28,299 nt of DNA. Source: an uncultured Ruminococcus sp. Lineage in GTDB: Bacteria > Bacillota > Clostridia > Oscillospirales > Ruminococcaceae. This document shows, piece after piece, positions 1,649 to 24,838 of this stretch (positions within the stretch are counted from its first letter, which is position 1; each line of letters starts with the position of its first letter). Both the position numbers and the translations under genes were made by a program. The stretch covers positions 1 through 28,299 of the forward strand of contig CAMCOJ010000001.1 of NCBI GenBank assembly GCA_945876405.1. The letters run 5' to 3'. The notes below the pieces were generated by a model that was not told the origin of the DNA, ran no database searches, and saw only the letters and a program-made list of their open reading frames with translations.

Positions 1649-1685
1649 TATTGGTATATTTTATCAAAATTTATTGGAGGATTAT

Positions 1686-8395: not shown

Positions 8396-9133
8396 TTACT
8401 TTCCGTTGAGGAATTCGGCGTAGCGGTCGCAGATTTCCTTTGTTTCTCCGAAAGCAATCTGCTGGCCTTTGTCGAGCCATAGAACTTTGGTGGCCATTCT
8501 TCTTATCTGGTCAAGGGAGTGAGATACAAGAAGGGTGGTGGCACCGCCCCCGATAATTTCAAGCATCTTTGCTTCACTCTTTTTTCTGAATGCTCCGTCA
8601 CCAACGGACAGAACCTCGTCGAGAATAAGAATCTCAGGATGTACAAGGCATGCTATTGAAAATGCAAGCCTCGACTTCATTCCGGATGAAAGATGAGAGA
8701 AAAGCCTGTCCTCAAATTCCCTGAGCTCAGCAAATTCTATTATGCTGTCATAGGTACGGTTCATAAATTCTCTTGTATATCCCAGCATAGCACCACGGAG
8801 AAATGTATTTTCCCTTACTGTAAGGTCGCCGTCAAATCCCGTTCCCAGTTCGAGAAGAGAGGCTATATTGCCCTTTACAGCCATAGTTCCTGTTGTAGGA
8901 CGCATTATTCCGGATATAACCTTGAGGAGGGTTGATTTTCCGGCTCCGTTTGAACCTACTATGCCAAGGAGTTCACCTTCCTCAAGACTGAAGGAAACAT
9001 TTTTTACAGCAGTAAATTCCTTTGGCTTGTACTGTCGCTTTATTTTCTGAATGACAACATCCTTAAGACCGACAGTGGAAAAATCTCCGGTTATGTATGA
9101 CACTGAAACATCATTAAGTTCAATTTTACTCAT
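8396..9133 (-). CDS. wzt: Polysaccharide ABC exporter, ATP-binding protein (Wzt type)
   Basis: 245 residues from ATG 9133, which follows AAGGAGG with a short gap; the longer frame to 9217 has no support and overlaps wzm. Motifs: Walker A GSNGAGKST (60-68), signature LSSGM (148-152), Walker B ILILDE (168-173) and switch His205. It powers Wzm to move a finished undecaprenyl-linked glycan across the membrane. Unlike E. coli O9a or O8 Wzt it ends after the nucleotide-binding domain and has no C-terminal carbohydrate-recognition domain, so export should not depend on end-cap recognition by Wzt itself. It lies 10 bases after wzm and is the last gene of the glycan locus. Confidence 0.92.
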   Translation of the reverse strand: MSKIELNDVSVSYITGDFSTVGLKDVVIQKIKRQYKPKEFTAVKNVSFSLEEGELLGIVGSNGAGKSTLLKVISGIMRPTTGTMAVKGNIASLLELGTGFDGDLTVRENTFLRGAMLGYTREFMNRTYDSIIEFAELREFEDRLFSHLSSGMKSRLAFSIACLVHPEILILDEVLSVGDGAFRKKSEAKMLEIIGGGATTLLVSHSLDQIRRMATKVLWLDKGQQIAFGETKEICDRYAEFLNGK

Positions 9134-9143
9134 AAGCTCCTCC

Positions 9144-9932
9144 TTACATGTAGTACATAAACTTGTAGTTGTACTTCTTATAAATAAGCGCCCCGGCCAG
9201 AAGTGCAATCGCAGCATAGAGGAGACAGAGCAGATGAGTTTTCCAGCCCGGAATATATCCGTATATTACAACATCTCTGAAATAAGTAATGTACACATAC
9301 ACCGGATTCAGATAGAAAAGTTTCTGTATGTGCTCCGGATAATCACCTGTGTAGTAGAAAATAGCGGAAAGATACATAAGCATCATTGTAAAGATATCAT
9401 AGAGATACTGAATATCCTTGAAAAGTACAAACAGTGCCGAGAGAATAAGACCACAGCCTATATTAAAGACAATCAGACATGCTATCGGATAGATAAGTGT
9501 AATAAAATTAATTGAAAAATGTATTCCGTCAAAAAGTGCAAAAACAAAGAATATCAGAAGCGTCAGACCGAAGTTAATAAGTGATGCCACATTTTTTGAA
9601 AGCAGGAACATATACTTCGGAAGATTGATCTTAGTGATAATATTAGAATTCTGCATGAGTGAATTCATTCCGCCGTATGTGGAATCCCTGAAAAATGAAA
9701 ACGTCAGGTTACCCGCAAAAAGATATATGGTATAGTGGGGAACATTTCTTCCGAAAAAATTTGTAAATACCACACTCATTACCAGGAGCTGCATAAGAGG
9801 TGATACAAGACTCCAGAGCATTCCAAGCGCCGTTCTCTTGTATTTTTTCTTAAAGTCTCTCTTTACGAGTTCTTCAAACAGGAACTGATGTTTTTTTATC
9901 TTCATCACCTGTTCTTTAATTACATTTACCAT
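9144..9932 (-). CDS. wzm: Polysaccharide ABC exporter, permease (Wzm type)
   Basis: 262 residues, ABC-2 type permease; ATG at 9932 after AAAGGA. It starts with the amphipathic cytoplasmic stretch typical of the family (LVKRDFKKKYKRTALGMLWSLVSPLMQLLVMSVVF in outline, residues about 21-55). About six hydrophobic segments follow, including INFGLTLLIFFVFALF, LIYPIACLIVFNIG and LLCLLYAAIALLAGALIY. It pairs with the ATPase directly downstream to form the channel for the lipid-linked polysaccharide. The absence of a Wzx flippase or Wzy polymerase in this locus agrees with ABC-dependent export. Confidence 0.93.
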   Translation of the reverse strand: MVNVIKEQVMKIKKHQFLFEELVKRDFKKKYKRTALGMLWSLVSPLMQLLVMSVVFTNFFGRNVPHYTIYLFAGNLTFSFFRDSTYGGMNSLMQNSNIITKINLPKYMFLLSKNVASLINFGLTLLIFFVFALFDGIHFSINFITLIYPIACLIVFNIGCGLILSALFVLFKDIQYLYDIFTMMLMYLSAIFYYTGDYPEHIQKLFYLNPVYVYITYFRDVVIYGYIPGWKTHLLCLLYAAIALLAGALIYKKYNYKFMYYM

Positions 9933-9979
9933 GCTTTTTTCCTTTCTGTTCTTCCCGTACCACGGGCAGAGAACGGTTG

Positions 9980-12418
9980 TTATTCGTTCTCTGTCATGAC
10001 GGGAATAATTTTTTCTGCAGTGACCCCGCTGAATTTATTTCGGACAGCTACTTTCACAAAAAGTTCTCTGTCTTTGTAGTCCCCCTCCGGAACAATAAAG
10101 GTTATACTGGAATATTCAGTATGAGGGTGAATATCAACCGCTCCGGAACACAGAACATTCCCCTTTCCGTCTGTTATATCTGCTGAAATCCGGGCAGTCA
10201 TTATATTCATCGCACAGTTTGGAGCGCGCGAAATGCCGAAACACAGCTTACTGAGGCATCCGGGACTTACCCTGAATGAAGCAGGACATCCAAGAACCGG
10301 TTCCCGGTCCTTTCCGTCGTAAAAATACACGGCAAAGTCCGGATGCTGATGATATTCCGCCTCATAGTCCCTTCTGAATTTTTCTCTCTTAACCCTGCTC
10401 TTTTCATACTTTTCAAGATAATCAAGAGCGATTTTTTTCTTCCTTTTATTTGTTCTTATAATGCCTTCCGCATCAGTAAAACCTTCCGGAAATCTGAGGA
10501 AAGATCCTGTTCCATAGTAGTTTTCCTTATAAAAATTCTCAAAAACATAGTCACTCTGATTTACTCCGAAGTTTTCACCGCCTATATTCGGCCAGGAAAG
10601 TGTTACAAACGGAACCGCCTCATATTCATCGGGATGTCTGACCGCACAGTAATTAAAATATGTGCTCCATTCATCATATCCGAGTGTGACTATATCCGGG
10701 TATTCATCTATAAGCTCGCAGTACCACTTTCTGTTGATCACCTGCGGCTGATGTGCGGAGTACTGAAGCGTCGGATATCCGCCTGCCTTAAGGAATTTCA
10801 GTGTTCTCATATGGGAGTAGTCATACGAGAACATTGATGTTATTCTGTATTTCCAGGTCGAAATATCAGAAAAATAATATCCTCTGTACTTTCCGTCCTT
10901 AAAAAACACCTCTTCACTTACATAATCAAGAGGACGATAGTCATCATCTGACATGATGAATTCATCATCAAGAATTTCAAGTCTCATGGCAAGGCATCTC
11001 AGGTAGAAGTTTCTTGTGGAATGGTCTGCAGGAAGTGCATTTCCGGCAAGAAGTTCATCGTCAGTTACCACCGTAAGCTTCAGACGGCCTCTGTAGTTTT
11101 CTTTCATATACACTGCCATATCATCAGGACAGCAAACCACAAGCTCCTCAATAAAAGGCATGAACTCCTCTACAAAAGGCAGTGTTGCAAGAAGAGGTGC
11201 AGGTCTTGCAGAGAGATATACTATCTGCTTAATCCTGCCGTGCTCCGTTTCTGCCGGCTTTCTGCTGCTGTTTACAAGAGAAATAACATTTTTCACTGTA
11301 TCGCTCCAGAGCGGTGGTCTGTATTCTTCTGCAATCTGCTTTTTCTTTAATCTGTACTTCTCTTCAGAGTTTATATACTCTTCAATTATACCGGCAAAAG
11401 CATCAGGATCATCAGGCGGAAAATACTCACAGAATTTCTGCCCTACCTCTCTCATGACCGGAATATCCGAACAGACAACCGGCACGCCCTTAATCAAAGC
11501 TTCTATGGTCGGCAGTCCGTAGCCTTCCGTGTATGAAGGAAAGGCTATCATAAAGGCCATACTGTAAAGTTCTGACAGAGTTGCGTCACTGACGTTTGAG
11601 AACATATATATTCCGTTGTCAAACTTAGGGTTTGACTTTATCCTGTCTGTAAGCTCCTCCATCTGCCAGCCTGTTCTTCCCACAAATACGACATCCGTAT
11701 CAAGTGCTGAAAGTCTCTTCTCATATGCTTCAACAATGAGTTTATGATTTTTTCGGGGCTCGATTGTTCCGACACTCAGGATAAATCTTCTTCCCTGAAG
11801 CTTTCTGATTATTTTCTCATCAGCCTCTTCGCCGTCTGATTTGTTTCCTACTGAAAAATCAGCACCGAGATTAATTACATGAACAGGTTTCGGGCGTATT
11901 CCCGTCTCTTCAAAAAGCTTTAGTACGTCCTGCTTTACTGCATCGGTATTTACTATTATGTCATCAGTATATGTCAGATGTGCCGTTATAAACTCCATAA
12001 ATTTCATAAGCGTCACAGATGCCATATACTGCGGGTATCTTAACGGTATCAGATCATAGATCTGAGTAATTATTCTTATATTTTTATTTTTGAGCTGCGG
12101 CAGAAGAAAACTTCTGTTCGGAAGCGTATGCCAGCAGCTGTTTATCTCCAGAAATACAGAATTTTTCTCAAACTGTTCTACTGTTATCAGTTTGTCTGTA
12201 TAACATGATTTTCTGTCCTCAGTCATATTTTCAAAGCAATTCACAAGTACTGCACTGTCAATTACTCTGTAAGCATGATCCGATGGATTATATGACAAAA
12301 GGATAAAATCAGTCTTTTCTTTTTCAAGTCTTAATATTATTTCACTTACAACCCTTGATATCCCTGTAAACTGAGTCAGCATAGGTATATTGGTTATATC
12401 AATATAAATCTTTTTCAT
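9980..12418 (-). CDS. Large fusion: GT4 glycosyltransferase, Stealth-like domain and C-terminal beta-rich tail
   Basis: 812 residues, about twice the usual GT4 length; ATG at 12418. Residues 1-385 are a GT4 (GT-B) enzyme: N-terminal TGISRVVSEI, SVGTIEPRKNH (215-225) and the E-x7-E motif in YTEGYGLPTIEAL (296-308). Residues about 395-650 form a second unit with RNFYLRCLAMR, DDEFIMSDDDYRPL (acidic triplet near 491-493), DGKYRGYYF and a later SAHQPQVINRKW. These resemble from memory the conserved regions of Stealth sugar-1-phosphate transferases. Residues about 700-812 look like a beta-sandwich, unidentified. If the Stealth assignment holds, the protein adds both a hexose and a phosphodiester-linked sugar. 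It lies 47 bp upstream of wzm and 166 bp after the previous gene. The GT4 part is certain; the rest is inference. Confidence 0.85.
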   Translation of the reverse strand: MKKIYIDITNIPMLTQFTGISRVVSEIILRLEKEKTDFILLSYNPSDHAYRVIDSAVLVNCFENMTEDRKSCYTDKLITVEQFEKNSVFLEINSCWHTLPNRSFLLPQLKNKNIRIITQIYDLIPLRYPQYMASVTLMKFMEFITAHLTYTDDIIVNTDAVKQDVLKLFEETGIRPKPVHVINLGADFSVGNKSDGEEADEKIIRKLQGRRFILSVGTIEPRKNHKLIVEAYEKRLSALDTDVVFVGRTGWQMEELTDRIKSNPKFDNGIYMFSNVSDATLSELYSMAFMIAFPSYTEGYGLPTIEALIKGVPVVCSDIPVMREVGQKFCEYFPPDDPDAFAGIIEEYINSEEKYRLKKKQIAEEYRPPLWSDTVKNVISLVNSSRKPAETEHGRIKQIVYLSARPAPLLATLPFVEEFMPFIEELVVCCPDDMAVYMKENYRGRLKLTVVTDDELLAGNALPADHSTRNFYLRCLAMRLEILDDEFIMSDDDYRPLDYVSEEVFFKDGKYRGYYFSDISTWKYRITSMFSYDYSHMRTLKFLKAGGYPTLQYSAHQPQVINRKWYCELIDEYPDIVTLGYDEWSTYFNYCAVRHPDEYEAVPFVTLSWPNIGGENFGVNQSDYVFENFYKENYYGTGSFLRFPEGFTDAEGIIRTNKRKKKIALDYLEKYEKSRVKREKFRRDYEAEYHQHPDFAVYFYDGKDREPVLGCPASFRVSPGCLSKLCFGISRAPNCAMNIMTARISADITDGKGNVLCSGAVDIHPHTEYSSITFIVPEGDYKDRELFVKVAVRNKFSGVTAEKIIPVMTENE

Positions 12419-12531
12419 TCAGGATCATCCCTGCCCCTCTGATTTAAATTATACCCTTTTGTTGTCTTTCCCTATATTTTGTATTGGCTTTTGTTTAGTT
12501 TCAAGATATAAATTTGCTGAAATTCTTTTAT

Positions 12532-12563
12532 TGCAGGGCTTTGCGGTCGCCCTGCACCTTCGC
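12532..12563. repeat. GC-rich intergenic repeat, copy B, with hairpin
   Basis: Within the 166-bp gap between two minus-strand genes. Arms TGCAGGGC (12532-12539) and GCCCTGCA (12549-12556) pair perfectly over 8 bp around a 9-base loop. The right part (gtcgccctgcaccttcgc, 12546-12563) repeats copy A. No T run follows on either strand, so a terminator is unlikely. The rest of the gap is AT-rich and holds a possible -10 box TATAAT (minus, 12448-12453) without a good -35. Confidence 0.6.
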
Positions 12564-12584
12564 CGGCTTAACCCTTAGCTTTAA

Positions 12585-14042
12585 TTATAAATTTCTGACA
12601 AAGGGATTGTATTTTATTCTGATTCCTTTATTTATTCTGTCCTGAGAACTGCAGGCGTATTCAATAAGTTTTTTCATAAATGCTGTACGGCCTCCGAGTT
12701 TCTCTTCGTTTTCCCAGAATTCGTAGTCTTTGTCCGATGGAAGTATGCCGAAAAAGGTAATGAATGCCGTTTCTATAAATTCTCTCACTGAACAGCCGGA
12801 ATTGATAAGTGCTGTTATATCGGCTGTTTCCGCCGGCCTTTCTGCATATGAGTGAAGGGCATTTCTGCTGAATTCCATAGCTTTTCCGGCATTCTTCATA
12901 TTGTTTTCCGTTATGTCGTAAATTTTATCGTATGAGTCCCCGCCGTTTCCTTCTGAACGGGGCGGAAAGTCTTCCATAAACTTCCTGAGATATTTCTGAA
13001 AATCATCCTTTATCTTTTCATATCTGAAATCTTCAAGTCTTCTGCGCTGAGCTTCCGTAATCATGCTGCGCATTTCTGCGTTGTTTACAACCTCATCTAT
13101 TACTTTTGAAAGGAACACAGGATTCTTGCTGTCAACTACAACTCCGGAGCCGCCTATAGTCTCCGGTACAGCACAGGCATTGTATGCAATAACCGGCACG
13201 TCAAATGTCATAGCCTCAAGAAGCGGCACACAGAAGCCCTCATGTTCACTCATACACAAAAACACATGAGCAGTTTTGTATATGGCAAGTATCTCGGCAA
13301 ATGTAATATGTCCCGGGAATATAACGTCACTTACGCCAAGTTCCTCCGTATATGATATAAGATCAGGATAATACATACCGTTAGCGTCATGGCTTCCCAC
13401 AAGAATCAGTCTTGATGAAGGATTAACGTTTTCCTTATAGTATGCAAATGTGCGTATAATATCCTCCTGTTTTTTGTTCGGCGCAATTCTTCCGACAAAT
13501 ATGATATTTGTTATACCGTCAGAAAGCTTCTGAACCATGTCCGGGTCAGGTTCCTGCTTATAGTCATCAAAAGGAACAATAACCGGAATAACATCTATCA
13601 GTGATTCATTATATCCCATCTTTACCATATCGCTTTTATTAAATTCGGAGTCAGCAATATATGAATCAAATTTTCCCTTCATATGGTTCTTCATATCCTC
13701 AATACCGATACGGCAGTTCTCAGATGAAGAAATATTGTCAATTCCGAAAAATTCATAAGGGGTTATGTTATGATACACCATAATCTTACGGCAGTTAAGC
13801 TCCGTAACCATGTGATTTACAGGTGAACCATTTCCCATATGGTAAATTACAATGTCATCTTCATTTACCTTCGGCATATTATCCAGAAGATATGCCCCCG
13901 GCTCAGTAACCTTTGCAGCTATTCCCGCCGCATATATCTCTGTTTCTATCCCCATATCCTCAATAACATGTTTCTTTGCTACTACATCATTTCCAATTGC
14001 ATCCCCAAAGTTAAGTGATGCAACAATCTGATAGATTTTCAC
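12585..14042 (-). CDS. GT4 glycosyltransferase with a C-terminal DUF4214-like module
   Basis: 485 residues; GTG start at 14042, nine bases after AGGAGG and overlapping the upstream stop (GTGA). Residues 1-350 are a GT4 enzyme: an N-terminal Rossmann start (MKIYQIVASLNFGDAIG), NIIFVGRIAPNKKQEDII, and the sugar-nucleotide E-x7-E motif in SEHEGFCVPLLEAM. A charged, Gly-rich linker (about 360-420) leads to residues about 420-475 (VREFIETAFITFFGILPS...FWENEEKLGGRTAFMKKLI), which have the pattern of a DUF4214 helical module, also found in the M14 peptidase of this locus. Inferred role: cytoplasmic addition of a sugar (GDP-linked mannose or rhamnose is plausible) to the growing chain. The function of the tail is unknown; it may be a contact or docking element. 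Confidence 0.88.
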   Translation of the reverse strand: MKIYQIVASLNFGDAIGNDVVAKKHVIEDMGIETEIYAAGIAAKVTEPGAYLLDNMPKVNEDDIVIYHMGNGSPVNHMVTELNCRKIMVYHNITPYEFFGIDNISSSENCRIGIEDMKNHMKGKFDSYIADSEFNKSDMVKMGYNESLIDVIPVIVPFDDYKQEPDPDMVQKLSDGITNIIFVGRIAPNKKQEDIIRTFAYYKENVNPSSRLILVGSHDANGMYYPDLISYTEELGVSDVIFPGHITFAEILAIYKTAHVFLCMSEHEGFCVPLLEAMTFDVPVIAYNACAVPETIGGSGVVVDSKNPVFLSKVIDEVVNNAEMRSMITEAQRRRLEDFRYEKIKDDFQKYLRKFMEDFPPRSEGNGGDSYDKIYDITENNMKNAGKAMEFSRNALHSYAERPAETADITALINSGCSVREFIETAFITFFGILPSDKDYEFWENEEKLGGRTAFMKKLIEYACSSQDRINKGIRIKYNPFVRNL

Positions 14043-14560
14043 TTGTTATCGCCTCCTGATATGAGATTTTCCAGTTTCCCGGACAGTTCATCTATGCGTT
14101 CATTCAGGGCGATAATTTCCTTCTGCTGAATTTCAATACGTCCCGAAAGTTCCATCTCCTTTTTCTGAAACTGCATTTTAAGAATCTCTTCCCTGTTCAC
14201 ATAGTTTCTTATATGAAGTGCCACCCTTGAAAATGACATATTTACAGAATTCTGAGCTGCTACAACAGGCAGAAACAGAAAAGCACATATCTTTCTTATT
14301 ATTTTCTTGAAGAAAAATACAACCGGAGCAATTCCCCTCTTGTATGAAGTAAGCTCCTGATAGTATGAAATCTGATTTGATGCTGCAAGCACCGAGATAT
14401 CATTCAGAAATGATCTTCTGTCAAAATTCGTCTCAGCTGCACCGTATTTTCTGTCCCAGAACTCATTGAATGTTATTAAATCACAGGTCTCACCTGAATT
14501 TGAAGTTTCCTCATACACCTTATCAAGGAACCGCTGAATATCAGCATTGTTTTTTTTCAT
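14039..14560 (-). CDS. Small membrane-associated coiled-coil protein of the glycan locus (hypothetical)
   Basis: 173 residues; ATG at 14560 with AGAGAGG about 12 bases upstream. It overlaps the GT gene downstream by 4 bases, so they are coupled. Seen: a polar N-terminus; a hydrophobic amphipathic stretch near residues 80-105 (APVVFFFKKIIRKICAFLFLPVV) followed by AAQNSVNMSFSR; and a heptad-rich C-terminal coiled coil (about 120-168, IQQKEIIALNERIDELSGKL). The middle part resembles the N-terminal extension that precedes SAM-dependent methyltransferase domains in some O-antigen loci, but no methyltransferase domain follows. Inferred: a membrane-tethered scaffold or length ruler that organises the glycosyltransferases. 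No assigned function. Confidence 0.7.
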   Translation of the reverse strand: MKKNNADIQRFLDKVYEETSNSGETCDLITFNEFWDRKYGAAETNFDRRSFLNDISVLAASNQISYYQELTSYKRGIAPVVFFFKKIIRKICAFLFLPVVAAQNSVNMSFSRVALHIRNYVNREEILKMQFQKKEMELSGRIEIQQKEIIALNERIDELSGKLENLISGGDNK

Positions 14561-14619
14561 AAATTAACAAAACCTCTCTGAACTATACTTAGATATATTA
14601 TTTACAGATTACAAAAATT

Positions 14620-14752
14620 TATAGTGAACGTCAAAATAAATTTGACTTTCACTATAATTATTTTATTAATATTGCCTTGCACATCCGTTCCCTGCGGTCA
14701 CTCCGTGCATATCGGCACCGGTGAACGAAAAAATATTTTTTCGTTCACTATA
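14620..14752. mobile_element. Small palindromic element (MITE-like), TA-flanked
   Basis: A 133-bp gap element between the peptidase gene and the coiled-coil gene. Its two ends are an 11-base inverted repeat (TATAGTGAACG at 14620-14630; its complement at 14742-14752). If TA is taken as a target duplication the ends are TAGTGAACG, as in elements moved by IS630/mariner transposases. Each end also forms its own hairpin: 14619-14657 (one internal mismatch) and 14721-14748 (a perfect 28-base palindrome, GTGAACGAAAAA plus its complement). The inner part carries a GC-rich stretch (about 14690-14720) similar to copies A and B. The first 49 bases (14619-14667) recur identically at 28247-28295. No ORF is present. 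Confidence 0.7.
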
Positions 14753-14780
14753 TTTCTGTTCTTCCGAAGATGAATATCCG

Positions 14781-17702
14781 TCAGTTTCTGACAGTAACCT
14801 CTCCGCCCGAAATGCTGTATTCTTCACACATAGCCCTGAATTCATCTGAATGTGCAAGTCTGCTGAGTATCCATGACCTTGTGTAACCTTCTCCGAGTGA
14901 GGAAAGATTCTGTGAAATCTCTTCATCAGAAGGACGGCGTCTGCAGAACGCCTCATATGCAATTCCTATAAATTCCTCATCGGAATATCCATGATTCATG
15001 AATTCAGTACTTTCGGTAAAAAGCCGGATTTCATCCGCCGGAGTACTTTTTCCGTTATTTATTCTCTCAATCCAGAACTTCCATCCGTTTTCATCAGGTT
15101 CTCTGCTCAGAATTGTGTTATAGAGATGTCTGACATACTCTGCAGCATTATTTTTATGCTGAATTTCCTTTGCGTTGTAAAGCGGCATGCTCAGAAGATA
15201 AGGAATGACGTTTCTGTGTCTTTCGTATATGTCCGAAAACTGTGAAAGCGGAAGCGGAGAATCACCTGAACCTATCTCAAGGGTAGCCGCTCTTAATCCC
15301 TTTCCTGCGACCCAGTTGCTGCATCCGCCGCCCCTGTCATCACTGTTTATAAGATAGTAACCTGTGAGCGAACCAAGATCCGAAGCCATTTTATTACATA
15401 CGCTTCTGAATTTTCCGGTCTGATGGTATGCCCAGTAAACGCATGAGCCTGATGAATGGTAGCTCACAACAGCCTGAACATCACTGAGTGATTCAACAAG
15501 TCCTGTCAGTGCCTTAACTTCATTTTCCGAAGCAGCTGAAGCTCCTGCATATCCCGAACAGCTTGGTCTTTTTATCTCATTCTGTCCTGCCCAGTCAGAG
15601 TCAAAGTTTCTGTTAAGGTCAACTCCCAGTGCATTGCACTTCCACGACCTGAGGTATGAGTCGAAACTGCGGGATGTAACACCTTCTCTCAGATCCTTAT
15701 TGTAAATATTTCTTATACGTGCCTTAACTGAAGGATTGTTTATTCCGTTTATACCATACTGTGAAAGAGTTATTCCGTCAGGGTTAAGCATAGGAATGAT
15801 ATGTATGCAGTAACTGTCAAGCAGCTCACTGTAGGATTTTCCGGCATAGGAACCGCTCCAGTAATTCTTAAGGAATCTTTCTGCATTTGCCATAAGAACC
15901 TGACTTGTCATATACTCCCTTGCATGACAGCCTGCCTGAATGACGATCTGCCTTTTGGCATCAGAAGAACCTATCATCATATCATAAATCTGACGTCCGT
16001 CAGCTGTAGAGCCGATAACGCTTACACTGACAAGCGATGAATACTGCTGCTGAAGACCTGTGATATCTTCAACCATGCTGTTATATGAATAGAGAGTATC
16101 TGATGTGTCAACAAATGTTTTAAGATCACTCCAGTCGGTACGAAGTGAACCCTCATTGTCGAAAAAGCAGTGAATGTCCCCTAACATCTGGACACCGGTC
16201 GCCATGAGACCGGTCTCAGGACTGATATAGCACTTAAAGCCTCCGTCGTTTCTCGACCAGCCGCCGACCTTTATCTCACCACGTTCGATTCCGAAGTCAG
16301 CGCACATGCGTGTAAATTCTTCGGAAAGTCCGAATTTTCTCAAAACAGATTCGCGGGTATGTCCCTTTCCGAGTGTTTCAGATATAAATTCACTTACTTC
16401 AGCATCACTGGCTTCTGTATCTTTCAGAAGGCTAAAAAGCATTCTGACATATTCCTCATCAGAAGAATTACGGGACTTATACTCCGGACTGAAAACAATC
16501 GACTTCACAACATCAGAGGCTGTCATCCTACCGGAATTAATGTGTCCGGTCCAGGTATTAAGCCCGTTTACATCAGCTCTCCTGCCAAGACAGATATTGT
16601 ATATCCTCTGGACAAATTCTGTTACACCGGCATTCATATCCCTGTTTTCATTTACAGTGATGACTCCGCTGTTTATTTCCCAGAGGCTGCATTTGCTTCT
16701 GAATTCCTCAGACATTACAAATCCTCTGAGAACAAATCTGCTGCTCATACCGTATCTCAGATATCTGCTCCAATGTTCAAGTCCTGACTCCGGAACTTCG
16801 TCTCTTACAAGAACCGTTGTGTACATATCAGAAACATATTCCCTTATACCTTCTTCATCGAAAGGGTAGGTTTTCCTTGTGTAGTAGTCCTCCAGAAGTT
16901 CTGATGCACTTATGTTTTTATCCTGAAGTTTCCATACAAGCATTTCCTGCTCATACTCACCTTCAGTAAGGAAACCGGCAAATTTTTTCAGATCATCATG
17001 CACGTATCTGCCGCTTCGTTCAATGCCGTATCTGCTGCACAGTTCAGTAAAGCTTCTGCTGCTCTCAAGCACTCTCTGAATCTCAGTTCTTGAGTATCCT
17101 GCGGCCAGTCTCCCTGTCATCTGTGCGGCAGCTTCATCACTGTACTCGCTGTCGGTCATAAGAATCCATACCATCTGAACGAATTCTTCATCGGTTTTTT
17201 CCTTTTTACTATATTCATTACTTGAAACAATACATCTTACAACATCCGCTGCTGTCATTCTTCCTGAATCAAGGTGTCCCTTCCATGTTGCAAGACCGCC
17301 TTCATCTGCCTCTCTTTCAAGGGCAATGCGATAGATTCGCTTTATAAACTCCTCTTCAGTAAATTTCTCTTCTTCAGAAGGATGAGCTTCAGTCTCGCCT
17401 TCATCTGTATTTTCATCATTTACAGATTCATCATTGTTTTCCGGTTCAGATTCTTCAGTACTTTCCGTAATTTCACCAGGCTGTTTATCAGGCTCTGTCT
17501 GAACTGTTTCTTCTTCCGAACCGTTCCCTGTTTCATCAGAACCTCCGTTCTGTCCTTCAGAGGCCCCATCTTTTTCTTCAGATACAGCCTCTGTCTGTGA
17601 AACTTCAGTTTCAGCTGGGCTGTCGTTTTCAGCGGCAAACACTGCATTGCCATATGAGGCTGTTACAAGCAGTGCTGTAATAAATGCTATCGTTTTTTTC
17701 AT
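14781..17702 (-). CDS. Secreted M14 metallocarboxypeptidase with multiple DUF4214-like modules
   Basis: 973 residues; ATG at 17702 overlaps the upstream stop by 4 bases (ATGA). Signal peptide (1-23), then a highly acidic Glu/Ser/Thr linker (25-112). DUF4214-like helical units are at about 115-226, 287-346 (shorter, degenerate), 360-478 and 851-966. Residues 488-522 (YISPETGLMATGVQML, FFDNEGSLRTDW) resemble one cell-wall-binding repeat. The M14 peptidase domain spans about 535-845: zinc ligands His593 and Glu596 (CHAREYM) and His749 (VVSYHSSG), substrate-binding DLNRNF (695-700), catalytic Glu809 (ATLEIGSG). All catalytic residues are present, so it should be active outside the cell on peptides, perhaps peptidoglycan stems or substrate proteins. 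Its place inside a glycan operon suggests a surface role tied to that polymer; the substrate is unknown. Confidence 0.9.
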   Translation of the reverse strand: MKKTIAFITALLVTASYGNAVFAAENDSPAETEVSQTEAVSEEKDGASEGQNGGSDETGNGSEEETVQTEPDKQPGEITESTEESEPENNDESVNDENTDEGETEAHPSEEEKFTEEEFIKRIYRIALEREADEGGLATWKGHLDSGRMTAADVVRCIVSSNEYSKKEKTDEEFVQMVWILMTDSEYSDEAAAQMTGRLAAGYSRTEIQRVLESSRSFTELCSRYGIERSGRYVHDDLKKFAGFLTEGEYEQEMLVWKLQDKNISASELLEDYYTRKTYPFDEEGIREYVSDMYTTVLVRDEVPESGLEHWSRYLRYGMSSRFVLRGFVMSEEFRSKCSLWEINSGVITVNENRDMNAGVTEFVQRIYNICLGRRADVNGLNTWTGHINSGRMTASDVVKSIVFSPEYKSRNSSDEEYVRMLFSLLKDTEASDAEVSEFISETLGKGHTRESVLRKFGLSEEFTRMCADFGIERGEIKVGGWSRNDGGFKCYISPETGLMATGVQMLGDIHCFFDNEGSLRTDWSDLKTFVDTSDTLYSYNSMVEDITGLQQQYSSLVSVSVIGSTADGRQIYDMMIGSSDAKRQIVIQAGCHAREYMTSQVLMANAERFLKNYWSGSYAGKSYSELLDSYCIHIIPMLNPDGITLSQYGINGINNPSVKARIRNIYNKDLREGVTSRSFDSYLRSWKCNALGVDLNRNFDSDWAGQNEIKRPSCSGYAGASAASENEVKALTGLVESLSDVQAVVSYHSSGSCVYWAYHQTGKFRSVCNKMASDLGSLTGYYLINSDDRGGGCSNWVAGKGLRAATLEIGSGDSPLPLSQFSDIYERHRNVIPYLLSMPLYNAKEIQHKNNAAEYVRHLYNTILSREPDENGWKFWIERINNGKSTPADEIRLFTESTEFMNHGYSDEEFIGIAYEAFCRRRPSDEEISQNLSSLGEGYTRSWILSRLAHSDEFRAMCEEYSISGGEVTVRN

Positions 17703-18643
17703 GATTTCTCCTTTAGTCTCCAGTATTCCATAATATCGTCTATCGTACTGTCAATAGGTATCTCAGGACACCATCCGGTATCTTCCTTTATTCTCGTTAT
17801 ATCAGCAGCAATTGAAGGGACATCACTCGGTCTCATCCGCGAGCTGTCCTGTACAACCTCTATGCTTACTGATGATTTTTTCAGTATTCTGTCAAGCATG
17901 CTGCGTATGCTTTCCGCTCTGCCGCTGCCAACGTTATACGTCTGCCCCGGTTTTCCGTCCTTCATAAGAGCAGAGTACGCTCTTACAATATCACGTACAT
18001 CGGTAAAGTCACGTTCAGCTTCAAGGTTACCGACACTGAGAACCGGTTCCTTCTTTCCGAGTTCAGCCATAACAACCTGTCTGCAAAAGTCTGAAATAAC
18101 AAATATATCCGACTGTCCCGGTCCTATATGGTTAAATGCACGAACCATGATTACATTCATTCCGTATGCTCTGGCATATATCTCTCCGAGCATTCCCTGA
18201 CAGGCCTTTGTAGCCGCATAAATATTTCCAGCACGAAGAAGGGTATCTTCCTTTACCGGTATCTCCTCCGGCTTAAGATAACCGTACTCTTCACCTGAAC
18301 CTACAAGAAGAACTTCAGGGGAGTAACCTGAATTTCTTACAGCTTCAAGAACGTTAATCGTTCCCTTTATATTTATATCAGCGGTAAGCTGAGGTTTGTC
18401 CCATGACAGCTTTACCGAACTCTGCGCTGCCAGATGATAAATCTGATCCGGCTTTATTTTTTCAAGAAGTTCAGCCACAGCCTCCGCATCAAGAATATCG
18501 AGATTATATATTTCAGCATCCGGAGTTTCAAGGCTCTCATGTGCAAGCTTTGTCGCATACACGCTGAAACCACATTCACAGGCAAGATGCCTTATAAGAT
18601 GGCCGCCTACAAATCCGGCCGCACCGATAACAAGTGCTTTCAT
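17699..18643 (-). CDS. rmd: NAD(P)-dependent GDP-4-keto-6-deoxy-D-mannose reductase (Rmd type)
   Basis: 314 residues from ATG 18643, one base after the upstream stop; the upstream extension to 18667 runs into the previous gene. Extended SDR fold: GAAGFVG (7-13) for NAD(P), GSGEEYG (Ser116), catalytic Tyr142 and Lys146 (YAATK), and RAFNHIGPGQ, which is characteristic of Rmd and close relatives. It would reduce the Gmd product to GDP-D-rhamnose. GDP-L-fucose synthase (Fcl) looks different at the N-terminus (GHxGMVGSA), which is absent here. The presence of gmd and manC in the same operon supports the assignment. A reductase making GDP-6-deoxy-talose, or a UDP/dTDP-sugar epimerase, cannot be fully excluded. 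Confidence 0.82.
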   Translation of the reverse strand: MKALVIGAAGFVGGHLIRHLACECGFSVYATKLAHESLETPDAEIYNLDILDAEAVAELLEKIKPDQIYHLAAQSSVKLSWDKPQLTADINIKGTINVLEAVRNSGYSPEVLLVGSGEEYGYLKPEEIPVKEDTLLRAGNIYAATKACQGMLGEIYARAYGMNVIMVRAFNHIGPGQSDIFVISDFCRQVVMAELGKKEPVLSVGNLEAERDFTDVRDIVRAYSALMKDGKPGQTYNVGSGRAESIRSMLDRILKKSSVSIEVVQDSSRMRPSDVPSIAADITRIKEDTGWCPEIPIDSTIDDIMEYWRLKEKS

Positions 18644-18644
18644 T

Positions 18645-19769
18645 TTACTTTCCCGCCTTTCCTGCAAGTTCCTCGTATATATTGCTTATCTTATCATTAA
18701 CTATGTTCATTTCGTACTTTTCTCTTACGAGAGAATATGCGTTTTTACCATACTGTTCACGCAGTTCATTATCGTGAACAAGATTTTCAATTGCCTCAGC
18801 AAGCTTTTCCTCATCTCCCGGCGGAACCGTTATTCCGCTGTATCCGTCAGGACTTACATAGGGCACACCTGTAGGAAGATCCGTGTTTATAACCGGTTTT
18901 CCGTATACCATAGCCTCCATCTGCACTATACCGAATGCCTCACTGCTTGCCACAGAGGGCAGAACAAATATGTCACAGTCGCTGAATGCTGCTTTCAGGT
19001 CTCTGTCCGAAAGCACTCCCATAAAGTGAATTCTTTCCTCAGTTCCCGCCTTTTTAACTTCCTTCAGAAGTTCATCACGAAGCACACCGTCTCCGGCAAT
19101 GAAAAGCTCGCAGTCTGTTGTGCGGTTCATTGCTCTGATAAGTACATCTATGCCCTTGTAGTATACAAGGCGTCCGGTAAAAAGTATTTTTTTACTGCTT
19201 CTGCAGCTGAGCTTATCTGTGAGAAAAGGATATTTTTCGGCTTTTTCATATGCCCCGGTATCTATTCCGTAAGGCACTATCCTGCATTTTTCAGCATACG
19301 GCTTAAGATAACAGGAACCTTTGATATGTCCCTCTGTAGCCACAAAGATGCAGTCCGCTCTCTTCAGAAAAGCATTCATAACCGGCCTGTAGAAAGTCAT
19401 AAGTTTCTTCTGCTTGACTATATCGCTGTGCCAGCTTACAACCACCTTACCCTTGTATCCGGACAAAAGACAAGCCAGATCACCGAGAGGAAAGGGCAGA
19501 TGAACATGTACTATATCCGCTGCCCGGGCCATCTTTCTGAAATGGAACAGAAACGGAATTGATACCGGCATTGAAAAGTATGTTCCTATACTTCCCGAAC
19601 GCCTGACTTTTATACCGTTTACCACCTCGTCCGCCGTCCTGCCCTTTGGCTGACAAACAAGAACTTCTATGTCATAACGATCTGAAAGGCCCTCTGAAAT
19701 ATCCTGAATAACACGCTCTATACCGCCTATATGCGGACTGTAAAGTTTATTTACCTGAAGTATCTTCAT
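18645..19769 (-). CDS. GT4 glycosyltransferase (WbpZ/WbdC-like)
   Basis: 374 residues; its ATG at 19769 overlaps the stop of the upstream gene (ATGA), so they are translationally coupled. GT-B fold with the N-terminal acceptor-domain signature YSPHIGGIERVIQDIS, VVVSWHSDIVKQ, KILFTGRLVYYKGIDVLI and the E-x7-E motif in SEAFGIVQMEAM. The stretch KPVINTDLPTGVPYVSPDG followed by GITVPPGDEEKL is typical, from memory, of WbpZ-type mannosyl/rhamnosyltransferases of ABC-exported homopolymers. Inferred role: adds a GDP-derived mannose or D-rhamnose as an adaptor or chain residue in the cytoplasm. The exact linkage cannot be read from sequence. Confidence 0.9.
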   Translation of the reverse strand: MKILQVNKLYSPHIGGIERVIQDISEGLSDRYDIEVLVCQPKGRTADEVVNGIKVRRSGSIGTYFSMPVSIPFLFHFRKMARAADIVHVHLPFPLGDLACLLSGYKGKVVVSWHSDIVKQKKLMTFYRPVMNAFLKRADCIFVATEGHIKGSCYLKPYAEKCRIVPYGIDTGAYEKAEKYPFLTDKLSCRSSKKILFTGRLVYYKGIDVLIRAMNRTTDCELFIAGDGVLRDELLKEVKKAGTEERIHFMGVLSDRDLKAAFSDCDIFVLPSVASSEAFGIVQMEAMVYGKPVINTDLPTGVPYVSPDGYSGITVPPGDEEKLAEAIENLVHDNELREQYGKNAYSLVREKYEMNIVNDKISNIYEELAGKAGK

Positions 19770-20914
19770 CCCAGTACTTCCTCATATATTCCGTGAAGCT
19801 TTTCAGAAAATCTGTTCCATGTAAACTCCGCCGCTCTTTCCATACCGCTCCTGCTCAGATTTTCTCTGAGAGTCTCGTCAGAGTAGATTTTATACATACC
19901 TTCCGCAATGGACAAAGGAGAATATGCATCAACTATAACGGCACAGTCGCCCACTACTTCCGGAAGAGAAGCTTCACCGCTTGAAACCACAGGTACTCCG
20001 CATGCCATAGCCTCAAGGGGCGGCATACCGAAGCCCTCATATATGGAAGGAAACACAAAGGCACATGCACCGTTCATAAGAGGACAGATATCCTCATCAG
20101 GAATATACTTTGTAAACTGAACACTTTCCTCAAGTCCCAACTCCTGAACCTTGCTGTAAATACCGCTGTTAAGCCAGCCCTTTCCGCCTGCCATAACAAG
20201 TTTCGGAACATCGCCGTATCTGTCCTTAAGAATTCTGTATGCTTCTATAAGACGTTCGAGATTCTTTCGCGGTTCGATGGTTCCCAGATACAGAAAGTAC
20301 TCCCCTTCTATCCCGAGGGATTTTTTTGTCTTTTCTATACGCTCACTGTCAGCTATATGATAGAATTTTTCTGTGTTTACACCACAGTATACGACTTTTA
20401 TCTTATCAGCAAACTGAGGATAGTATTTGATTATCTCACTTTTGCTGAATTCTGAATCCGTTATTATTACATCTGCACGCTTCATGGACTTCTTCATGCC
20501 GGTAAGGAGGAGCTGCTTCGTTCTGAAACGGACAGTTTCCGGATATGCCCGGATTACCATGTCGTGAATGGTTACAACTTTTTTTCCGTGTACAAAAGGC
20601 GGTACTATATAATTGAAAAAGTGCGTAAGCTCTGCTTTTTTTCCAAAAAACACGCTGTACGGCACCGGTATGATATTCATTATGCTTCTGTATAAAAATC
20701 CGGAAAAATGTGATTCATTAATGGAACAGTTCTCCTGCATATATGCAGCGAGTCTCTTCCTCTTAACCTCATGATTCTTTCGTGAAAAATAGTCAAATGT
20801 ATAGCGGTCCTCCGGGTGAGAACGTATCATCTCACCCACAAGACCCGCCTGACAATAGCCTATTCCTGACATATTTTCACTGATAAGCGGCAGTACATCA
20901 AATGAAATATTCAT
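19766..20914 (-). CDS. GT4 glycosyltransferase (WbpY/WbdB-like)
   Basis: 382 residues; ATG at 20914, one base after the gmd stop, with an AGGA site inside the last gmd codons. GT4 features: SGIGYCQAGL near the N-terminus, TIHDMVIRAYPE, a hinge followed by YLGTIEPRKNLERLI, and EGFGMPPLEAMACGVPVV with the E-x7-E motif. The TIEPRKN segment is also present in the 812-residue fusion, and both resemble the mannosyl/rhamnosyltransferases of A-band-like loci. Inferred to add GDP-D-rhamnose or GDP-mannose to the lipid-linked chain. No membrane segment is evident. Confidence 0.9.
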   Translation of the reverse strand: MNISFDVLPLISENMSGIGYCQAGLVGEMIRSHPEDRYTFDYFSRKNHEVKRKRLAAYMQENCSINESHFSGFLYRSIMNIIPVPYSVFFGKKAELTHFFNYIVPPFVHGKKVVTIHDMVIRAYPETVRFRTKQLLLTGMKKSMKRADVIITDSEFSKSEIIKYYPQFADKIKVVYCGVNTEKFYHIADSERIEKTKKSLGIEGEYFLYLGTIEPRKNLERLIEAYRILKDRYGDVPKLVMAGGKGWLNSGIYSKVQELGLEESVQFTKYIPDEDICPLMNGACAFVFPSIYEGFGMPPLEAMACGVPVVSSGEASLPEVVGDCAVIVDAYSPLSIAEGMYKIYSDETLRENLSRSGMERAAEFTWNRFSEKLHGIYEEVLG

Positions 20915-20915
20915 A

Positions 20916-21956
<1,041 letters not shown>

Positions 21957-21972
21957 TTACTCCTCTTCTTTA

Positions 21973-23052
21973 TTAGATAAGATCTCTTCTGTTGCATGTT
22001 TTCAGGGTTTCAATAACCTTTTTAACCTGCTGTGTATGATCCTTTGAACAGATAAGCATTGCGTCATCTGTATCCACTATAATTATATCCTCTACGCCAA
22101 GTGCTGCGATGAGTTTTTTGTTACCGCAGATAATGCTTCTGTTTGTGTCTATGCTTATTACATCACCTGACACATAGTTTCCGCATTCATCTGTTTTGTT
22201 TATCTTTTCAAGGGCAAGCCAGCTTCCCACATCGTCCCATCCGAAGCTGCCGGAAAGCGTGTAGATATTCTCTGCCTTTTCCATAATTCCGAAGTCAATT
22301 GATTCTGATCTGAAGTTTTCAAAGCACTCTGCAAGCGTTTCCCTGAAGCTCCCTGTAAGTGCTGTTTCTCTCATCCGGAGATAGCCCTCATACATATCAG
22401 GAAGGAACTTCTTAAAGTTATTCATGATGGACGATACCTTCCATACGAACATGCCGCTGTTCCAGAGATAACGTCCGGAGTTGAGGTATTCCTTTGCTGT
22501 TTCACGGCATGGTTTTTCAACGAATTTGTCTACCTTGTAAACACCTGCCATATCCTCGTCAGCCGCACTGCAGAACTTGATATATCCGTAGCCAGTTTCA
22601 GGATATGTTGGAGTGATACCGACTGTAACAAGATTTTCGCCCTTCTTTGCAACCTTTACAGCATGACGCATGGTATCAGTGTAGAGCTCATCGTATTTTA
22701 TAAGGTGGTCTGAAGGAAGAACCATCATAACCGCATCTTCATTGTACTTTTTGCTTATTACTGCTGCAGCAAGAGCGATACATGGTGCTGTATTTCTTGC
22801 AACAGGTTCCGCGAGTATATTTTCCGAAGGAATATCCGGCAGCTGCTCATTTATAAGCGGAACGTAATTCTCGTTTGTTACTATAAATATGTCTTCTGTA
22901 TCGACTATCGGAAGAAGTCTCTTTATAGTTTTCTGAATCATCGTCTCTCCGTCCGAAGTAAGCGAAAGAAACTGCTTTGGATATGAACTGCGGCTTTTCG
23001 GCCAGAATCTTTCACCCTTGCCGCCTGCCATAATTACTGCTGTAATTTTCAT
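21973..23052 (-). CDS. manC: Mannose-1-phosphate guanylyltransferase
   Basis: 359 residues; ATG at 23052, with the AAAGGA site lying over the end of the upstream gene. It makes GDP-D-mannose from mannose-1-phosphate and GTP. Signatures: nucleotide-binding GGKGERFWPKSR followed by YPKQF, EPVARNTAPCIALAA, VLPSDHLI, the FVEKP sugar-binding motif and FGWDDVGSW. It is the single-domain form: the C-terminal phosphomannose isomerase (cupin) domain of bifunctional ManC/AlgA is absent, so mannose-6-phosphate must come from genes elsewhere. No phosphomannomutase gene is found in the window. Confidence 0.96.
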   Translation of the reverse strand: MKITAVIMAGGKGERFWPKSRSSYPKQFLSLTSDGETMIQKTIKRLLPIVDTEDIFIVTNENYVPLINEQLPDIPSENILAEPVARNTAPCIALAAAVISKKYNEDAVMMVLPSDHLIKYDELYTDTMRHAVKVAKKGENLVTVGITPTYPETGYGYIKFCSAADEDMAGVYKVDKFVEKPCRETAKEYLNSGRYLWNSGMFVWKVSSIMNNFKKFLPDMYEGYLRMRETALTGSFRETLAECFENFRSESIDFGIMEKAENIYTLSGSFGWDDVGSWLALEKINKTDECGNYVSGDVISIDTNRSIICGNKKLIAALGVEDIIIVDTDDAMLICSKDHTQQVKKVIETLKTCNRRDLI

Positions 23053-23060
23053 AGATTAAA

Positions 23061-24422
23061 TTATTCCTTTCCGTTTTTGCTGGCTATAATATTTTCCGAT
23101 TCATTTGTTTTGCCCGGAAAAATCATGGTCTTTATGGTCATGAGTATTATCTTAAAGTCAAGCAGAAGACTGTATTTTTCTATGTACATAAGGTCCATAC
23201 GGAGCTTGTCATAAGGTGTGGTATCATACTTTCCCATAATCTGTGCATAGCCTGTAAGTCCTGCTTTAACCGTAAGTCTGAAACTGAACTCTGCCATGTC
23301 CTTTTCATATTCGGCAGCAATAGCCGGTCTCTCCGGTCTCGGTCCGACAAAGGACATGTCGCCTTTTATTATATTGAATATCTGAGGGAGCTCATCAAGA
23401 CGGCATTTGCGGATAAATGCACCTACCTTCGTGATTCGGCTGTCTCCGTCCCTTGCAAGGACAGCTTTTCCGTCCTTTTCGGCATCGACAGTCATGCTCC
23501 TGAACTTCAGAACATTGAATCTCTTTCCGTGTGTGGTAAGTCTCTCCTGCCTGTAAATGACCGGGCCTCCGTCTTCAATCTTTATTGCCAGTGCCACAAC
23601 GACCATCGGTACAATAAGAAACGGCAGAAGAAAAACTGCAAATCCAAAATCAAATATACGCTTGGCAGCTCTTACCTCTATGGAAAGACCGTCATTTCTG
23701 CAAAGAAGAAGAGGCGAGTCAAAAAGATTTATCTCCTGAGCACCCCGGACTATTATGTCGGATATCTTAGGTGCCATGTACACCCTGAGCTGTCTGTCGA
23801 AACAGAACTTAAGGATATCGTTTCTTACACGGTCAGGAACATCGTACAGAATCACACCGCCGTAGCCGAGTATCTTTTCCTTTATAACATCTATATCCTC
23901 ATCAGCCTTAACTGACTCGGATATTATGTACTTGTCCGCACGCTGACTCATCTTTACAACAAGACTTTCGGCATTTCTGCTCCCGTATACTATTATCATC
24001 TTCCTTGGCGGGAACAGCTTTGCATAGACAAATGCATATACAAGCGTCCAGACCAGTACTATGATAATATCTATAACAGTCAGAAAAATCATCGGCATAA
24101 AATGCATAAAATCACGCCCGATAACACTTATCTGACAATAAGTTATTACATTTATAACAAACACTGATATAAGCTGGGAGTAAAATGCCTCTGATTTTCT
24201 AAGATATCCTACCTTGTAGCTTCCGTAAACCTTGTTGAAAATAACAGTTATGACTATATAAATTCCGATAACCATCCAGTTTCCCTTACGGTAAAAAGGA
24301 AGCACTATCTGCTGCGAATAACAGAGATACCATACCACAGCAAATGCCAGGCCAAGCAAAGAAGTATTTATAACTGCTGACAGCCAGTTAAGCGTTCTTT
24401 TATACTGTTCAAATTTTTTCAT
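23061..24422 (-). CDS. Polyprenyl-phosphate sugar phosphotransferase (initiating enzyme, WbaP/WcaJ type)
   Basis: About 453 residues from ATG 24422; an in-frame TTG at 24434 lies only three bases from GAGG and is the alternative. Four N-terminal membrane segments (for example NTSLLGLAFAVVWYLCY and IFLTVIDIIIVLVWTLVY) lead to a cytoplasmic Rossmann-like part (IIVYGSRNAESLV), a re-entrant hydrophobic helix (KRIFDFGFAVFLLPFLIVPM) and the catalytic phosphoglycosyltransferase domain with KFRSM, RKCRLDELPQ and GDMSFVGPRPERP. Family knowledge: it transfers a sugar-1-phosphate from a UDP-sugar to undecaprenyl phosphate, starting the glycan on the inner face of the membrane. The particular sugar cannot be told. 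It is the first gene of the large minus-strand operon. Confidence 0.93.
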   Translation of the reverse strand: MKKFEQYKRTLNWLSAVINTSLLGLAFAVVWYLCYSQQIVLPFYRKGNWMVIGIYIVITVIFNKVYGSYKVGYLRKSEAFYSQLISVFVINVITYCQISVIGRDFMHFMPMIFLTVIDIIIVLVWTLVYAFVYAKLFPPRKMIIVYGSRNAESLVVKMSQRADKYIISESVKADEDIDVIKEKILGYGGVILYDVPDRVRNDILKFCFDRQLRVYMAPKISDIIVRGAQEINLFDSPLLLCRNDGLSIEVRAAKRIFDFGFAVFLLPFLIVPMVVVALAIKIEDGGPVIYRQERLTTHGKRFNVLKFRSMTVDAEKDGKAVLARDGDSRITKVGAFIRKCRLDELPQIFNIIKGDMSFVGPRPERPAIAAEYEKDMAEFSFRLTVKAGLTGYAQIMGKYDTTPYDKLRMDLMYIEKYSLLLDFKIILMTIKTMIFPGKTNESENIIASKNGKE

Positions 24423-24467
24423 AAGTTTTATCAAAATCCTCTGTTTCGGTTACAAAACAAATAAACA

Positions 24468-24484
24468 AGCCGGATTTGCCGGCA
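24468..24484 (-). promoter_or_regulatory. Short leader hairpin followed by a U-rich run before the glycan operon
   Basis: On the minus strand GCCGG and CCGGC (24479-24483, 24469-24473) form a 5-bp GC stem with a 5-base loop, roughly 10 nt after the predicted transcription start, followed by a T/G-rich stretch (ttgtttatttgttttg). It looks like a weak intrinsic terminator in the leader and may act as an attenuator. Inference only. Confidence 0.4.
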
Positions 24485-24497
24485 CACACATATTTAT

Positions 24498-24525
24498 ATT
24501 ATAACCATAAATTCGGAAAAGTCAA
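24498..24525 (-). promoter_or_regulatory. Promoter of the glycan operon
   Basis: On the minus strand TTGACT (24520-24525) and TATAAT (24498-24503) are 16 bp apart, about 75 bp before the ATG of the initiating phosphotransferase. It is the only good promoter I see for the run of minus-strand genes down to wzt. Confidence 0.8.
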
Positions 24526-24796: not shown

Positions 24797-24838
24797 AACA
24801 GAAAGGACTGCTAAGGCAGTCCTTTCTGTTATTTTAAC
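24797..24838. terminator. Terminator after tRNA-Leu, shared with the convergent AAA-nuclease gene
   Basis: A perfect 15-bp stem (24797-24811 with 24816-24830) with loop TAAG and a following attttaac tail. The right arm overlaps the stop codon (24829-24831) of the minus-strand gene, so it lies at the meeting point of two convergent units. Confidence 0.8.

Follow-up and report, generated by a model that had tools for sequence, protein, structure and literature searches.

The 28,299-nucleotide contig of an uncultured Ruminococcus sp. analyzed here (CAMCOJ010000001.1, hereafter the window) contains a locus of 12 minus-strand genes that runs from an initiating sugar-phosphate transferase (24434) through the exporter ATPase Wzt (8396). 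This locus probably makes GDP-D-rhamnose and, by the steps proposed below, a polyprenyl-linked, ABC-exported surface glycan of the Gram-positive type. The window belongs to an 88% complete assembly of 434 contigs and 2.54 Mb. The locus holds a PF02397 transferase, ManC, Gmd, an Rmd-type reductase, four glycosyltransferases of family GT4 (PF00534), Wzm and Wzt, and its spacing is operon-like, with gaps of −4 to 47 bp except for two of 220 and 166 bp. A first-pass annotation of the same DNA had described an initiating phosphotransferase, several GT4 enzymes and Wzm/Wzt in the absence of Wzx/Wzy; all of these genes are present at 8396-24434, and a Pfam scan of 20 window proteins found no Wzx or Wzy family. 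That annotation did not mention an M14/DUF4214 peptidase gene, a gene for a 173-aa protein or that the product of the gene at 9980-12418 has a second domain.

The predicted GDP-D-rhamnose pathway and its reductase

The first gene of the locus (23061-24434, minus strand like the other eleven) encodes a polyprenyl-phosphate hexose-1-phosphate transferase (PGT) of the WbaP/WcaJ type, the predicted glycan initiator, with 214 bits to PF02397 and 311 bits to TIGR03025 (cut-off 295.55). It is followed by ManC (21973-23052; PF00483 and PF22640), a mannose-1-phosphate guanylyltransferase without isomerase domain that stays just under the bifunctional GMP_PMI model TIGR01479 (367.3 bits, cut-off 372.95), and by the GDP-mannose 4,6-dehydratase Gmd (20916-21950), which passes the curated cut-off of NCBIfam TIGR01472 (483.9 vs. 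415 bits). Two core glycosyltransferases, GT4a (19766-20914; PF00534, 125 bits) and GT4b (18645-19769; PF00534, 134.7 bits), lie between Gmd and Rmd (17699-18643), the candidate GDP-4-keto-6-deoxy-D-mannose reductase. These families and scores agree with the earlier proposal that ManC, Gmd and an Rmd-type reductase form the full GDP-D-rhamnose branch from mannose-1-phosphate.

The assignment of the reductase was based on PDB matches, motifs and a tree. The best solved relatives were the RMD of Aneurinibacillus thermoaerophilus (2pk3, 288.6 bits) and then the RMD of Pseudomonas aeruginosa (6x3b, 178 bits). In a tree of 43 rows, among which a talose-forming reference is absent, the window reductase falls in a clade with 2pk3 (support 83/92, unstarred), and the clades of Fcl (100/99) and Gmd (100/100) are separate from it. 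The window enzyme reads SGEEYG where five of five Fcl rows show SSCIYP, and it lacks the Cys of the Fcl-type motif, which we take to be the epimerase Cys; it also contains the motif NHIGPGQ common to the solved RMDs 2pk3 and 6x3b. Phylogenetic placement had been suggested as a check of the first-pass assignment, and the reductase did not group with Fcl or with non-GDP epimerases, identities that are ruled out by PDB matches, motifs and tree alike. The NCBIfam models for LegB (139.5 of 475 bits) and dTDP-glucose dehydratase (133.2 of 365.1 bits) were far under cut-off and were rejected. In all 11 chromosomal loci retrieved from other genera, Gmd adjoins Rmd directly; this set includes four mutually close relatives and two identical reductases, and G029, a genome of another genus with the full cassette, was counted apart. 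Taken together, the GDP-D-rhamnose pathway predicted for the locus is well supported by sequence. Synthesis of GDP-D-rhamnose by GMD/RMD is known in Gram-positive Aneurinibacillus, where passages of one report describe RMD function in vitro (PMC9415975).

In the scheme we propose, the PGT would put a hexose-1-phosphate onto the lipid carrier, and ManC, Gmd and Rmd would convert mannose-1-phosphate via GDP-D-mannose and GDP-4-keto-6-deoxy-mannose to GDP-D-rhamnose. The conserved GT4a and GT4b would lengthen the primer with residues derived from GDP-sugars (D-mannose/D-rhamnose), and a strain-variable module, made up of the glycosyltransferase GT4_tail with its 173-aa partner and of a GT4/Stealth-fold fusion, would add an outer repeat that probably contains a sugar-1-phosphate (phosphodiester) link. 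Export of the chain would fall to Wzm/Wzt, and a secreted M14/DUF4214 peptidase, whose gene overlaps rmd, would act at or dock in the glycan layer. The order of the sugars, the phosphodiester, the location of the chain and the role of the peptidase are what we infer here, around a gene content, enzyme families, reductase placement, colinearity and fusion-domain fold that were shown by computation.

Conserved core and variable module in the genus

D-rhamnose is a sugar best known from Pseudomonas, and the first-pass annotation considered it uncommon in Gram-positive surface polymers. Rmd is rare across the class, with matches at E≤1e-60 in 6 of the 390 other genomes that we sampled, but not closer to the window: 24 of 197 genomes in a larger family sample have it (E≤1e-80), and at E≤1e-40 it is present in nine of ten genus relatives and in the window genome, i.e. 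in 10/11. At this last threshold our first sample gave Rmd in one of 26 other family genomes and in none of 24 from the order. The core PGT-ManC-Gmd-GT4a-GT4b-Rmd is colinear in the same 10 of 11 genus genomes, all those with Rmd, and in G029; since six genes keep this order, the locus is not a chance arrangement. In G004, the sole genus genome without an Rmd match, Gmd lies on one contig and the M14/DUF4214 gene on another of just 4.3 kb, and the locus may therefore simply be split.

Behind the core, a module of GT4_tail, the GT4/Stealth-fold fusion and Wzm is found in G000, G007, G006, G009, G003 and, inverted, G002, and it ends with a window-like Wzt except in G009, where the contig stops. 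In the window, GT4_tail (12585-14042; PF00534, 96.1 bits) is a GT4 with a C-terminal tail of ~110 aa, Wzm (9144-9932; PF01061, 49.8 bits) is the exporter permease and Wzt (8396-9130, 244 aa) is the ATPase, with PF00005 (90.4 bits) as the sole family over cut-off and no Wzt_C domain (PF14524) in the Pfam scan. G001 and G010 have a different exporter, with a Wzm of ~30% identity and a 400-aa Wzt that carries Wzt_C, and the contigs of G005 and G008 end before the exporter block can be judged. A constant core with a swapped exporter and glycosyltransferase block fits, in our interpretation, a conserved adaptor followed by a variable repeat.

The fusion protein (9980-12418) is composed of an N-terminal GT4, a domain at residues ~392-650 and a C-terminal beta-strand region. 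The domain at ~392-650 has the catalytic-domain fold of Stealth/GlcNAc-1-phosphotransferases (GNPT), whose chains were ahead by about 4 Z units in the fold comparison, and with such a fold a phosphodiester-containing glycan would be plausible. Two features of the 173-aa protein (14039-14560), possibly a membrane scaffold or ruler, were recognized by eye, a coiled-coil-like tail and a basic/hydrophobic segment; neither Pfam (E≤0.001) nor the PHROGs gave it a match. Its gene overlaps the downstream GT4_tail gene by 4 bp. We also observed a conserved segment of the type RK...P....QN..N in this protein, and in seven other genus loci a similar small protein is encoded ahead of the GT4_tail gene; those of G001 and G010 have no BLASTP match. 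The tail of GT4_tail has no Pfam match and resembles DUF4214 only weakly (hhalign probability 65.5%, E 5.8e-5, single comparison), so the case for GT4_tail as a DUF4214 carrier is weak.

The gene behind rmd (14781-17702) encodes a 973-aa M14 zinc carboxypeptidase (PF00246, 129.9 bits) with six DUF4214 stretches (PF13946, 191.2 bits vs. a gathering cut-off of 23.2), which we predict to be secreted from a signal-peptide-like N-terminus read by eye from the translation. The gene begins 4 bp before rmd ends, and no other DUF4214 gene was found in the window genome. An M14/DUF4214 gene follows rmd in six of the ten genus loci with Rmd, with the 4-bp overlap in five of the six; in three loci another gene is found there, and in one the contig ends. 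Both domains are present together in 10 of 41 database matches. The copy in G007 (L055:11526-15182, 1218 aa) has in addition a C39-type peptidase tail that the window copy lacks.

Known systems and rival explanations

The nearest described kind of system is the Gram-positive S-layer-glycan (slg) cluster. According to passages of PMC2943079, slg clusters, described mainly from Geobacillus stearothermophilus and Paenibacillus alvei, combine a WbaP-type PGT and Wzm/Wzt with adaptor and repeat assembly and have tight genes with overlapping start and stop codons; the window locus is alike in initiator, exporter, gene overlap and Gram-positive host. In the slg system of A. thermoaerophilus, GDP-D-rhamnose is made via GMD/RMD, as predicted here (PMC9415975, in part). 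The slg clusters were found through rmlABCD genes, whereas the sugar genes of the window are ManC-Gmd-Rmd, and the GT4/Stealth-fold fusion and the M14/DUF4214 peptidase also set the window locus apart. Neither an S-layer protein nor an O-oligosaccharyltransferase turned up in the scan of 20 window proteins, a search confined to the window; some slg systems keep the S-layer gene at a distant site (passages of PMC2943079).

The first-pass annotation had likened the locus to the A-band (common polysaccharide antigen) of P. aeruginosa. The likeness stands for the GDP-D-rhamnose pathway, the several glycosyltransferases and Wzm/Wzt, but not for the remaining parts. A-band synthesis is reportedly initiated by WbpL, a WecA-type enzyme, whereas the window has a WbaP-type PF02397 PGT (a comparison limited to the window), and the A-band Wzt carries a C-terminal substrate domain (Wzt_C), which the window Wzt lacks, yet the G001 and G010 relatives possess. 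Three D-rhamnosyltransferases build the A-band homopolymer of D-rhamnose, whereas donor and acceptor specificity of the window GT4 enzymes is unreadable from sequence. The window locus adds the Stealth/GNPT-fold domain and the co-encoded M14/DUF4214 protein, and the lipopolysaccharide (LPS) core that accepts the A-band chain has no counterpart in a Gram-positive host. The A-band label is thus too narrow, and the slg-type cluster is the better comparison. With the Stealth enzymes CpsY and GNPTAB, the window domain has the fold in common; it differs in being fused behind a GT4, in scoring below PF11380 and in lacking the motifs CR1 and CR4.

We consider it rather unlikely that the product is a plain, A-band-like D-rhamnan, i.e. 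a phosphate-free homopolymer for which the four GT4 enzymes would be D-rhamnosyltransferases and the C-terminal domain of the fusion an ordinary GT-A. The PGT of WbaP rather than WecA type, the Wzt without Wzt_C and the lead of the Stealth/GNPT chains in the fold comparison argue against such a chain. Several observations nevertheless weigh against the scheme that we propose. The fusion domain is under the Pfam gathering score for Stealth PF11380 (21.4 vs. 39.4 bits) and has no relevant PDB match by sequence, and the Stealth motifs CR1 (IDVVYTF or similar) and CR4 (CLND/CIND), as defined in passages of PMC10668966, appear in none of 30 aligned rows; for these reasons the domain may be no more than an ordinary GT-A enzyme. 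The window also showed neither a ligase nor an attachment enzyme. In fold, the DUF4214 array resembles phycobilisome linkers (phycobilisome entries take the first 32 Foldseek rows, two of them at E≤0.001), which suggests a protein-protein rather than a glycan contact. As to the pathway, the P. aeruginosa RMD 6x3b sits on a long, unresolved branch of the tree, and the pairing of Gmd with Rmd is not universal, because four Pseudomonas plasmids annotate no separate gmd beside their Rmd-like gene. Whether C4 reduction gives rhamnose or 6-deoxy-talose is not readable from sequence.

This last point, C4 stereochemistry being encoded in none of the motifs examined, would allow GDP-6-deoxy-D-talose or another GDP-6-deoxyhexose as product, and a table in PMC12608077, seen in excerpt, names the rmd of Pseudomonas syringae 'GDP-6-deoxy-D-talose 4-dehydrogenase'. 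We regard this as very unlikely, as the closest solved relative, which shares a clade with the window reductase, is the A. thermoaerophilus RMD (288.6 bits), with its function shown in vitro for that strain (PMC9415975, in part). Of low probability is also an S-layer or secreted-protein O-glycosylation cluster, whose chain would be moved to a protein, possibly the M14/DUF4214 protein itself. The WbaP-type PGT with Wzm/Wzt is the slg arrangement (passages of PMC2943079), DUF4214 has been termed a likely surface-anchoring domain in segmented filamentous bacteria (passages of PMC12780176), and the gene for the secreted protein lies behind rmd in 6/10 genus loci; however, the three loci with another gene at that place (one more being cut by a contig end), and the scanned window proteins, with neither S-layer gene nor O-oligosaccharyltransferase among them, speak against such a cluster.

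DUF4214 and B_lectin leads and the flanking genes

DUF4214 and peptidase genes were also found near Rmd-like genes on Pseudomonas and Rhizobium plasmids, which is a lead and not proof. Four of six Pseudomonas plasmid records with an Rmd-like gene were fetched, and each of the four carries DUF4214 genes, with 0.6-6.6 kb to the nearest; for the two remaining records a DUF4214 relative is listed on the record itself, and several of these plasmids are closely related to one another. On two of them a trypsin-like protease gene lies in the same stretch. A Rhizobium rhizoryzae plasmid, chosen since its record stands in both the Rmd and the DUF4214 list, encodes an M10 (serralysin)-DUF4214 protein some 17 kb from an Rmd-like gene with gmd annotated beside it, manC lying between. 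In Pseudosulfitobacter, gmd has an S8-DUF4214 gene as its neighbour, but the locus encodes a GDP-L-fucose synthase as well. For the plasmid of strain CC1524, passages of PMC12608077 mention components of type I secretion, LPS genes and a gene copy named gmd. DUF4214 was not annotated on one Azospirillum and one Priestia record with an Rmd-like gene. Possibly, the plasmid reductases are not all RMDs, since they are 37-39% identical to the window reductase, those of Pseudomonas group in a clade of their own (100/99) and that of R. rhizoryzae is misplaced beside RmlD on a long branch.

From the side of DUF4214, 12 plasmid places were inspected, H36 being picked since its record is also in the Rmd list and the other 11 by hand for variety among 60 listed of 101 records. 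ManC, Gmd or Rmd was annotated within 15 kb of DUF4214 in three of these 11 (H46, H60, H70) and not in the other eight; a glycosyltransferase was near in five (H38, H42, H46, H63, H70), and neither was seen in five (H47, H49, H54, H85, H87). DUF4214 as an obligate partner of D-rhamnose is ruled out, as none of seven Rmd-bearing genomes outside the genus has the domain. It was likewise missing from 13 outside-genus stretches (the 11 Rmd loci, some cut by contig ends, and two G029 flanks). Four other genomes of the class bear DUF4214, G117 and G287 without Gmd, G316 and G384 with it; the latter two, of one genus, gave 131 and 110 first-look DUF4214 candidates, 14 of which were scored, and one Gmd each. 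In the literature passages naming DUF4214 we found no link to D-rhamnose.

Pseudomonas lectin-like (B-lectin) bacteriocins bind D-rhamnose (passages of PMC6240691), and albusin B of R. albus 7, a B-lectin with an M15 peptidase, kills R. flavefaciens, the contributions of its domains being unstudied as of 2019 (passages of PMC6465234). B_lectin matches were obtained in 5/197 family genomes, two of the five over cut-off in the genome search, and no control genome gave a signal. Four of the five carry Rmd, as compared to 24/197 overall (hypergeometric 8e-4), and counted by genus the figures are 3/4 and 14/125 (4e-3); the test is post hoc and small, and two of the five genomes share a genus. Two B_lectin proteins scanned with Pfam scored 31.9 and 23.1 bits, under the cut-off of 32.4. 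In one of the five genomes a protein unites a B_lectin match under cut-off with an M23 peptidase. The co-occurrence is therefore a lead, not proof. A toxin/immunity split ('lectin carriers without D-rhamnose') is ruled out by the four Rmd-bearing genomes. In the genus of the window B_lectin was matched in 0/11 genomes, which does not show absence since no control gave a signal. Among the family relatives, L108:874-1944 encodes B_lectin with an M23 peptidase and L105:927-2051 a dockerin, B_lectin and DUF4329, B_lectin being just or well below cut-off.

One could extend these leads to a general role, in which DUF4214 would tie secreted peptidases (M14, M10, S8 and a separate trypsin-like one) to GDP-6-deoxyhexose glycans or their carrier proteins across phyla, and a D-rhamnose layer would be the B_lectin target in this Clostridia family and might serve as receptor for ruminococcal lectin-peptidase bacteriocins of the albusin B type. 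We hold this extension to be decidedly improbable. It is weakened because the plasmid reductases may not all be RMDs, because H36 was chosen knowing that its record is in the Rmd list, and because a GDP-L-fucose synthase occurs in the Pseudosulfitobacter locus.

Outside the coding regions of the locus, a promoter-like site precedes the first gene (24498-24525, minus strand; TTGACT-16-TATAAT, 11/12 match, by consensus only), and the edge of this match is the end coordinate, 24525, of the first-pass annotation. Such matches were not clearly above shuffles (53 vs. 40.6, sd 7.3). A 13-pair hairpin lies at 14720-14749 in the 220-bp gap behind the M14 gene, and Rfam at gathering threshold gave nothing except one tRNA. 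The window also encodes dockerin modules (180-1460, 1674-3434) and, at 6761-8230, a GH16 enzyme, all of which fit a host that may degrade fibre, but none of our results speaks to the attachment to plant fibre that the first-pass annotation had raised. Two overlapping genes at 3493-4969 have no Pfam family, the larger with a weak PHROG match of unknown function, and both are conserved in G007. At 24829-26397 and 26439-28007 are tandem AAA-ATPase_like + PDDEXK_9 genes (504/522 residues identical), of which G010 has four tandem relatives within its glycan locus, between Rmd and Wzm.

Among the matches listed in our open-literature searches, none described D-rhamnose on Ruminococcus. If real, the genus-wide cassette gives rumen ruminococci a defined and testable surface sugar. 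That DUF4214 and peptidases are paired with some GDP-6-deoxyhexose loci would give a first functional handle on this domain of unknown function, and a D-rhamnose glycan, if true, would make the question of the albusin B target directly testable.

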